From contig JAICPP010000003.1 in the NCBI GenBank assembly GCA_025929805.1, positions 1 to 33,069 on the forward strand: a stretch of DNA of 33,069 bases, written 5' to 3'. The stretch is from Gemmatimonadales bacterium. Its GTDB lineage: Bacteria > Gemmatimonadota > Gemmatimonadetes > Gemmatimonadales > GWC2-71-9. Positions 27,750 to 30,105 of this stretch are shown one piece after another. The notes below the pieces were generated by a model. That model worked only from the letters and a program-made list of their open reading frames with translations. It made no database searches and was not told the origin of the DNA. Each line of letters opens with the position of its first letter. Position 1 is the first letter of the stretch. The position numbers and the translations under genes were made by a program.

Positions 27750-28502
27750 CTAACGAATTGCCAGAATCACATCATACAACGCATGAGTCCAGGCAGTAAT
27801 GCCGAACCCTCGCGAGAGGTACAAGCCACTAAAAAGCAGGCCAGCTACCGTCCGGAAGGTGAACGAGGTGAGTGCCAGAGATTCACCATAGGGACCGATG
27901 TAATGAAAAGCAGAGAAGACGAGGGCACCGAGCACGATCGCTAAGAGATCGGCCGTCAACCGCGTCCAGCGGAAAAGTCGGGTGGCCAACAGGGCCAGAC
28001 CGGAGACCAGCAGTACCCGGAACAGAAGCTCCTCGTAGATACCGGCACCCAGTGAGATCATGAGTTGGGCGGGGAGGCTCAGCTCAACGGCAAGGCGAGG
28101 GATACCCTCGACCGCAGTCGCCACCAACACCAGCGTCGGCAGCAGCAGCACCGTGAGCGCACTCGCCACGAATCCGAAGGCCAGCGCGTATGCAACGGTC
28201 TCACCGGCCATCAGGGCCAAGTAGCGAGGCCGTATACCTCCACGGCGCCGGATGTCTCGCCCCACGAGTGAGGCTCCTCCCCCCACCAACAACAGCCCGA
28301 AAACCGTCAATCCATCCCGACCACCGAGCCCGACGAAGAGGCTCTTCAGCAGCACGTCGGCTCCGTTTCGCACTCCTGCCGCCTCGGCATCGGATAGAAG
28401 GAACGCGAGTGCTTCGTACAGAATGAGCAGAGGAAAGGCGAAGCTCAGGCTGTACCGAGGTTCCCTGGTCTCAGTCCAATAGCTCGATCGTGTCAGACTC
28501 AC
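27750..28502 (-). CDS. CPBP-family intramembrane metalloprotease
   Basis: GAGIYEELLFRVLLVS, VFSAFHYIGPYG, ITAWTHALYDVILA; multiple TM segments. GTG start at 28502 preferred because the ORF-track TTG (28532) lies in a terminator U-tract. Confidence 0.82.
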   Translation of the reverse strand: MSLTRSSYWTETREPRYSLSFAFPLLILYEALAFLLSDAEAAGVRNGADVLLKSLFVGLGGRDGLTVFGLLLVGGGASLVGRDIRRRGGIRPRYLALMAGETVAYALAFGFVASALTVLLLPTLVLVATAVEGIPRLAVELSLPAQLMISLGAGIYEELLFRVLLVSGLALLATRLFRWTRLTADLLAIVLGALVFSAFHYIGPYGESLALTSFTFRTVAGLLFSGLYLSRGFGITAWTHALYDVILAIR

Positions 28503-28530
28503 GGGGATCGCGGACCTCTCGCCATCGCCC

Positions 28531-28558
28531 AAAGAAAAGGGGCCGCTTCCGCGGCCCC
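28531..28558 (-). terminator. Intrinsic terminator on the minus strand upstream of the CPBP gene
   Basis: Minus strand GGGGCCGC-GGAA-GCGGCCCC then TTTTCTTT. Confidence 0.8.
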
Positions 28559-28677
28559 CCCAGGTTCATAGTGTCGCCTGGGTCTCAGCTTGCAGCTCGT
28601 GCTAACGGCCGCAGGCGACCCTTGACTCTGTAGACAATGGATCACCTCCTCGGTTGCAGGTGGAACAGGTAATGCGC
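28531..28677 (-). ncRNA. Candidate short structured transcript or leader with a very strong SD and mini-ORFs
   Basis: TTGATC-18-TACACT at 28713-28684; GAGGAGGTGATCC at 28650-28638; mini-ORFs of 11 aa (TTG 28637) or 17 aa (ATT 28638); 8-bp stem GTCGCCTG/CAGGCGAC; terminator at 28531-28558. Confidence 0.45.
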
Positions 28678-28752
28678 CCAATAAGTGTACTCGGAGGCCA
28701 TACTCAGGATCAACCCTCTTCCATTGGAGTAGATACCCCGCAACATTGGGCC

Positions 28753-30105
28753 ATGCCTTCCACTTCGCGGTTCTATCGGATTGCAATTCGGATGGGAACC
28801 GCGATTGCTCCCGTGGTGGGCTGGTTCAATCCAAAGATCCGAACGGGCACGCGGCTGCGGCGCGACGCCGGCGAACGTCTGTTGGAGTGGGCTCGGTGGA
28901 ACCGCGATCCTGCCCGGCCATTGGTGTGGTTTCACGCCTCATCTGTGGGGGAGGGCTTGCAGGCTCAAGCCGTGCTTCTCGCCCTCCGCCGAATCCGCGC
29001 CGATTGCCAGATCGTCTACACCCACTTCAGCCCCTCCGCCGTGGACCTGGCCCGGCGCATCGAGTCCGACGTCTCCGACTGTCTACCCTACGATCTCCCC
29101 CAGCCGGTCGAACGGCTGCTTGCTGTTCTGGAGCCGGATCTCGTGGTATTTGCCAAGCTGGATGTCTGGCCCGAGCTGTCCACCAGAGCGGCAACCAGCA
29201 GTGCGCAAGTGGCGATCGTGGCCGCCACGGTGAGTCCCGGAAGCAGCCGACTCCGTTGGCCGGTCCGGCAGCTACTCCAGCCAGGATATCGTGCGGTCGC
29301 GGCCGCCGCGGTGATCTCGCCGGAGGATGGACAACGCCTCGTCCGTCTGGGGGTAGATCGTGATCGGATTCATGTCTTGGGCGATCCCCGCTTCGACAGC
29401 GTGGCCGACCGGGTGCGCAGCGTGAGTCCAGACGAGCCACTGCTTCGCTTCGGGAGTGGCGCGCCCACTCTGGTGGCGGGATCCACCTGGCCGGCGGACG
29501 AAAACGTCCTTCTACCGGCCTTTACTCGCCTGCGGCAGCAACGGCCGGATGCCCGTTTGATCGTGGTGCCTCACGAGCCGACAGGAGAGCACCTGAACGG
29601 ACTGGAGCAGAGCGCCCGCGCTGCAGGCCTGCCCTCGCCGGTTCGCCTGAGTGCTGCCGAAGGCCCGGTCCCATTCCTGGTGGTCGATCGGGTGGGAGTC
29701 CTGGCCGTACTCTACGGCGCCGGGACAATAGCCTATGTCGGAGGTGGTTATGGAGCGGCGGGCCTGCATTCGGTTCTGGAACCCGCCGCGTGGGCGCTCC
29801 CAGTGACATTCGGCCCCCGATGGCAAAACAGCCGTGATGCTGCACTGTTATTGGAGGCGGGTGCGGCGGTTGCGTTGCCCGATTCTGGTGCCGAAAGTGC
29901 GCCAGAGGCACTCCGCGAATTGTGGGCGGCGTGGCTTGCCGATGAAGCCAGCCGAAAGAGCCAAGGACATCGGGGGCGAGAAGTGGTGGATCAGGGGACG
30001 GGAGCCTCGGAGCGGAGCGCCGCCATGCTGGCCCGGCTTATTTCAGGACGACGCCCTCGTAGGTCACCGCCCGCGGCACAATCAACCCGGCCGTCAATGC
30101 GGTGA
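28753..30105 (+). CDS. waaA: 3-deoxy-D-manno-octulosonic acid transferase
   Basis: PLVWFHASSVGEGLQAQAVLLALRRIR, VVFAKLDVWPELS, VAGSTWPADENVLLPAF, YVGGGYGAAGLHSVLEPAAWALPVTFGP. Confidence 0.93.
   Translation: MPSTSRFYRIAIRMGTAIAPVVGWFNPKIRTGTRLRRDAGERLLEWARWNRDPARPLVWFHASSVGEGLQAQAVLLALRRIRADCQIVYTHFSPSAVDLARRIESDVSDCLPYDLPQPVERLLAVLEPDLVVFAKLDVWPELSTRAATSSAQVAIVAATVSPGSSRLRWPVRQLLQPGYRAVAAAAVISPEDGQRLVRLGVDRDRIHVLGDPRFDSVADRVRSVSPDEPLLRFGSGAPTLVAGSTWPADENVLLPAFTRLRQQRPDARLIVVPHEPTGEHLNGLEQSARAAGLPSPVRLSAAEGPVPFLVVDRVGVLAVLYGAGTIAYVGGGYGAAGLHSVLEPAAWALPVTFGPRWQNSRDAALLLEAGAAVALPDSGAESAPEALRELWAAWLADEASRKSQGHRGREVVDQGTGASERSAAMLARLISGRRPRRSPPAAQSTRPSMR

Follow-up and report, generated by a model that had tools for sequence, protein, structure and literature searches.

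CC2171 (Rfam RF01867) is an sRNA of Caulobacter. In the literature searched, we found no study of the function of CC2171 or of its peptide, and CC2171 was named there only as a family or as a predicted sRNA. It is thus a name in Rfam, with no function found for it in that literature. Among leaders of other kinds, those of SAM-II riboswitches are pseudoknots that sequester the Shine–Dalgarno sequence (SD). Among free RNAs carrying a mini-ORF, rnTrpL of Sinorhizobium is an example of the dual-function or attenuator-derived sRNAs (PMC10117765).

We analyzed a stretch of 33,069 nucleotides from a Gemmatimonadales bacterium (the window). Reading of its minus strand from 28713 to 28531 identified a promoter, an SD, a TTG-initiated mini-ORF, two stems, and an intrinsic terminator, and every element listed in the original prediction was present there. 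The features are as follows.

28684–28713, minus strand: sigma-70-type promoter TTGATC-18-TACACT, read from sequence, with the −35-side box TTGATC at 28713–28708, an 18-nt spacer, and the −10 box TACACT at 28689–28684
28651–28668, minus strand: conserved 5′ leader TGTTCCACCTGCAACCGA, directly upstream of the SD and kept beyond the genus
28639–28651, minus strand: extended SD GAGGAGGTGATCC, recognized by 16S complementarity; its 12-mer AGGAGGTGATCC (28650–28639) is fully complementary to the 16S 3′ end
28602–28637, minus strand: mini-ORF of 11 codons (MSTESRVACGR), recognized by start and stop conservation, with the start TTG at 28637–28635 and the stop TAG at 28604–28602
28613–28621, minus strand: internal anti-SD GGGTCGCCT within the ORF, forming helix A with its partner AGGTGATCC (28647–28639); evidence from energy z-scores and relatives
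28612–28619, minus strand: 5′ strand of helix B, GTCGCCTG, within the ORF and overlapping the anti-SD; evidence from sequence and a swap test across relatives
28573–28580, minus strand: 3′ strand of helix B, CAGGCGAC, retained in all same-genus copies
28539–28558, minus strand: terminator hairpin GGGGCCGC-GGAA-GCGGCCCC, read from sequence; terminator-like hairpins also occur at motif loci
28531–28538, minus strand: U-tract TTTTCTTT

The predicted transcript, its 5′ end placed from the −10 box, would extend from approximately 28677 to 28531 (approximately 145 nt).

The claim that the SD is a perfect complement of the canonical 16S tail was confirmed against the 16S gene of a same-family genome, since the 3′ end of that gene reads ...GGCTGGATCACCTCCTTTCTG; the 16S 3′ end of the source MAG itself is unassembled. 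The computed energy of the duplex between the SD and the 16S tail was −25.9 kcal/mol, and opening of the SD in the window was calculated to cost approximately 11 kcal/mol, less than the computed gain from pairing with 16S. With up to one mismatch, 0.25 matches to the 12-mer are expected in the window by chance, and a second exact copy, without an Rfam match, was found elsewhere in the assembly (L001). The 12-mer alone is therefore only mildly unusual and not decisive. Its chance origin, which would be possible judging from the window alone, was ruled out by conservation in relatives; together with the occurrence of the extended motif as a single copy and the absence of matches to reversed controls, this conservation places the unit far beyond chance.

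A similarity search with the minus strand of 28500–28760 matched seven of nine same-genus genomes (G001–G004, G006, G008, and G009) at 81–88% identity, approximately from the 5′ leader to the terminator, and eight more genomes from other genera or families, in which the match was limited to approximately 36 nt around the SD. Across the same-genus genomes, the divergent neighbor WaaA (KDO transferase) showed only 60–66% protein identity. In the two same-genus genomes without a match, waaA was cut by a contig edge (G007) or gave no match itself (G005), so that loss of the unit there is not established. Loss of the region where waaA is retained had been named as an outcome that would count against the original prediction; the unit was present wherever the same-genus waaA and its upstream region were assembled. 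No genome had more than one match to the 18-base pattern GGAGGTGATCCANTGTCT, which was present in 25 of 102 family genomes and 41 of 298 phylum genomes; the reversed pattern gave zero matches in both sets. When one mismatch was allowed, the 18-base pattern was found in 25 of the 69 more complete family genomes. The exact motif was missing from 257 of the 298 phylum genomes, in which the unit is thus absent or diverged. The conserved core AGGAGGTGATCCA[T/G/A]TGTCT was likewise limited to one copy per genome and recurred throughout Gemmatimonadota as well as in more than 100 other genome contigs, mostly of Alphaproteobacteria. One contig titled Gemmatimonadetes (L066) encodes the same peptide as a same-family locus (L041), the RNA being identical as far as read.

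The boundaries of the unit were kept among relatives while its surroundings changed. Same-genus copies carried promoters at the same place (TTGCAC-17-TAAAAT, TTGCAC-17-TAGAAT, and TTGCCG-17-TACAAT), with the boxes kept and the flanks diverging; TANNNT clusters lay 38–46 nt upstream of GGAGG in Gemmatimonadota copies; and a permissive scan without a shuffle control detected terminator-like hairpins at 149 of the 158 motif loci. A co-directional gene for a CPBP (Rce1-like) protein lies downstream in the window, L004, and L014, and a convergent dsbA-like gene directly follows the terminator in L007, L009, and L015. The CPBP gene is upstream and divergent in L043 and L137, waaA is divergent upstream of the unit in several family members, and the neighbors in the remaining loci are unrelated genes. 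Neighbors in L004, L007, and L009 were assigned by manual reading of the sequence, as the automatic longest-frame picks were out of frame. These arrangements mark the unit as free-standing, from promoter to intrinsic terminator.

Next to the perfect SD, the signals for starting and stopping translation were constrained. The base preceding TG in 158 distinct loci was G in 98, T in 50, A in 10, and C in none. The original prediction had also offered a 17-residue frame starting at ATT, which is not supported: relatives variously have ATT, AGT, or AAT as its first codon, and the frame one base later begins with TTG, GTG, or ATG in all 158 loci. Related pairs were compared if they were 60–90% identical across 60 nt and had both stops within that span; all 257 shared the position of the first in-frame stop, and 154 of them used different stop codons there. 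Positional agreement in the other two frames was 106 of 214 and 347 of 424. The 257 pairs are not independent; of 66 non-overlapping pairs, 50 agreed in stop position, 16 of them with different stop codons. TAA, TAG, and TGA interchanged within most size classes. Substitutions were distributed evenly over codon positions 1, 2, and 3 (173, 196, and 172), and 290 of 360 changed codons were non-synonymous and 70 synonymous, a pattern that did not indicate purifying selection on the peptide. The conserved start codon and stop position with exchanged stop codons are as expected for a translated mini-ORF, and in combination with the flat and mostly non-synonymous changes they argue that starting and stopping are conserved and the peptide is free to vary.

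Some loci carry other kinds of frame. In two gammaproteobacterial copies (L107:932–951, minus strand; L140:21–40, plus strand), the open frame runs through the terminator (GGGAGCC...GGCTCCCTTTT) and reaches the U-tract without a stop; their transcripts would be non-stop mini-mRNAs and natural substrates of ribosome rescue. Three Azospirillum loci (L101, L129, and L141) use the SD-NTGTCT start to open an ORF of 57–59 residues with a signal-peptide-like beginning (MSHGASPVVAALFGLAALLTAGIANA...), unlike the short frames elsewhere. At L175, left out of the statistics, the motif precedes an ORF of more than 100 residues resembling a VirB3/TrbD-type protein and probably represents an ordinary gene with a perfect SD.

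The SD can pair with an internal anti-SD to form helix A. In the window's genus the energy of this helix had a z-score of −4.15, with +0.6 for a reversed-SD control; it was moderate in some groups, and in the subgroup with 20-codon ORFs it was unexceptional (z −0.15, single-sequence). Helix A can show no covariation because its SD side is invariant. The anti-SD of the 14-codon form is GGATCGCC at approximately +37, and that of the 20-codon form, GGGCAA-GC-GATCGCC, ends further downstream and also covers the start codon. In the latter form, the invariant partner GGGCAAGCGATCGCC over the SD and start codon was intact in all 14 sequences, with 100% of cells paired. The frame in which GATCGCC is read differs between the 14-codon and the 20-codon form, which points to constraint on the RNA rather than on the peptide. 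In Rhodobacterales (L065, L068, L094, and others), the partner of the SD is CATCTCCTT or CACCTCCT, located just before the terminator and outside the ORF, and locking of the SD thus seems to be kept with a changed partner.

Helix B pairs the early codons with the segment preceding the terminator. The native strands from 45 Gemmatimonadota paired at −34.1 kcal/mol, compared with −25.8 kcal/mol when strands were swapped between species; for 102 others, the values were −32.6 and −24.7 kcal/mol, and native strands were better than swapped in 83–84% in the two groups. In the 20-codon subgroup (14 sequences), compensatory changes occurred in six of eight helix B pairs, and the covariation score was 0.246, compared with a shuffled mean of 0.147 (none of 500 shuffles as high) and with at most 0.057 for slid registers. 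In a 14-codon subset (10 sequences), pairing was 86% in the correct register and 33–36% in slid registers; covariation in this subset was not significant by column shuffles, partly because four members are in another register. The case for helix B as a predicted element is carried by the swap test and the 20-codon subset. Across same-genus copies, its 3′ strand has A or G at a wobble position. In one 14-codon copy (L061), repeated TCCGCA/CTGCAG-like units make up a long insertion that separates the ORF stop from this strand. In the 20-codon form, the two helices are in pseudoknot order (A5′, B5′, A3′, B3′), and in the window they share the strand 28619–28612 and are therefore mutually exclusive.

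The unit was also compared with known RNA families. The window had no Rfam match at gathering thresholds, and sub-threshold matches to BjrC68 and ftsZ-DE were rejected, GC-rich hairpins alone having matched. The window aligned to the full length of the RF01867 model with 24.6 bits (E 0.0015 in a search of 281 bases; curated cut-off 75 bits). This cut-off was reached by none of 41 phylum genomes; it was passed by three of 12 scanned Alphaproteobacterial loci and likewise by L099. The window fits the RF01867 5′ consensus cAAcaAucGAAAGGAGGUGAUCCAGUGUCU, reading CUGCAACCG--AGGAGGUGAUCCAUUGUCU with a two-base gap and a few differences, and the 3′ intrinsic terminator hairpin of the family is present at 28558–28531. 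A closing stem directly after NUGUCU and ending just before the terminator was clear in other Gemmatimonadota subgroups; in the window's genus the stem begins approximately 13 nt later. A scan for RAGGAGGTGATCCANTGTCT across one genome per species matched at least 119 stretches, those listed being mostly from Alphaproteobacteria, with others from Gemmatimonadota, one from Nitrospinota, and three from Gammaproteobacteria; the prevalence in Alphaproteobacteria is a lower bound only. By our own estimate, approximately two stretches with this 20-base pattern would be expected by chance.

Of the readings offered originally, the one best supported is a ribosome-binding sRNA, here with a mini-ORF that is translated: conservation extends to the promoter, SD, start, stop position, stems, and terminator, and RNAs of this kind are known from Alphaproteobacteria as Rfam CC2171. 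We consider it probable that the unit is a free-standing, translated, CC2171-like sRNA with its ribosome-binding site locked by its own structure, in which engagement of the ribosome rather than the peptide matters. An alternative in which the RNA is purely structural and its SD hybridizes to free 30S subunits as a decoy or reservoir, the ORF being incidental, would account for a 16S complementarity that is complete and exceeds the usual needs of initiation, and for the lack of peptide conservation; we regard it as improbable, since neither a start codon whose first base is T, G, or A and never C nor a fixed stop position with exchanging stop codons has reason to persist in an untranslated RNA. 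The converse alternative, a gene for a functional micropeptide (11–25 residues) with a regulated ribosome-binding site, is suggested by the conserved start and stop and by clade-specific patterns such as MSxD..ARIAgsR and MSHC...W. The small protein gene proposed originally is retained in its translation signals and not in its peptide sequence: the substitution pattern does not support it, the shared RNA motif is read in different frames, and the apparent peptide motifs overlie paired RNA segments, making a micropeptide gene quite improbable.

The attenuation of the CPBP protease gene that was also suggested originally, taken here as a leader-peptide mechanism acting on a co-directional gene, fits the three loci in which this gene follows the unit. 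The convergent dsbA-like genes, the CPBP genes on the other side, and the unrelated neighbors exclude CPBP attenuation as a general function, and the terminator stem overlaps neither helix A nor helix B, so that control of the terminator by translation is not obvious; we consider this explanation very improbable. Finally, the likeness between Gemmatimonadota and Alphaproteobacteria might be convergence imposed by the 16S tail rather than homology, given that eleven of the shared bases are the SD itself, that the remaining RNA aligns poorly, and that the Rfam score is sub-threshold. However, the shared bases reach beyond the SD on both sides (CAAC..GA before, A-NTGTCT after), both groups have the common order of promoter, ORF, long-range stem, and terminator, and the 20-base pattern far exceeds its estimated chance expectation; convergence is accordingly unlikely.

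Sequence comparison shows the elements, their conservation, the start and stop constraint, compensatory change in helix B among relatives, and a location independent of particular neighbors; the identity of the unit as a CC2171-like translated sRNA appears likely. We infer that it is transcribed and actually translated, that helices A and B switch, and that the RNA senses or exploits the loading or release of ribosomes (initiation capacity). The RNA would be a mini-mRNA whose 11-codon ORF has a perfect SD, a conserved start codon, and a conserved stop position, the peptide being unimportant. In the free RNA, the SD would be held by the anti-SD inside the ORF, and ribosomes would enter once free 30S subunits outcompete helix A. 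When the 3′ part has been made, or when a ribosome reads the ORF, pairing of helix B and the ribosome would replace helix A; translation of the short frame would then keep the structure open and finish at the stop. The likeliest purpose would be to respond to initiation capacity or to regulate through refolding that depends on the ribosome, a mechanism that we propose tentatively.

Compared with SAM-II leaders, the 20-codon Gemmatimonadota form has a similar pseudoknot order with the SD in one strand; it differs in being a free-standing RNA with no regulated downstream gene and no ligand in evidence. The window unit resembles rnTrpL (PMC10117765) in that the predicted free transcript is short and its ORF very short, whereas it has no conserved downstream operon, its ORF peptide is not conserved, and it carries a strong SD in place of the leaderless start of rnTrpL. 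As far as the literature searched shows, the Gemmatimonadota form, the constraint on start and stop without constraint on the peptide, and the built-in anti-SD are new. The closest likeness is to CC2171, with which the unit shares the 5′ order CAAC..GA-AGGAGGTGATCCA-NTGTCT, a similar length, and a full-length sub-threshold match; the long-range stem that in CC2171 starts after NTGTCT and closes before an intrinsic terminator has its clear counterpart in other Gemmatimonadota subgroups. The unit differs in its phylum, in its central hairpins, and in its start codon (TTG rather than GTG in CC2171), and the Rfam CC2171 consensus as printed has no SD/anti-SD pairing. Because its score lies well below the cut-off, the unit is best described as CC2171-like and not as a certified member. 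It is conceivable, if rather doubtful, that CC2171 and the related units of Gemmatimonadota belong to a single class of RNAs, spanning phyla, that report or buffer the capacity for translation initiation, each with a maximal SD locked by an anti-SD, opened by plentiful free 30S subunits, and an ORF that is merely entered and left. If so, the class would constitute a widespread sensor of translation capacity or a ribosome-binding regulator, and the current Rfam model of CC2171 would lack the translated frame as well as some of the structure. The relatives in a distant phylum, with their conserved start and stop codons, free peptide, and built-in anti-SD, turn CC2171 into a testable idea, that of a small RNA concerned with the ribosome itself.
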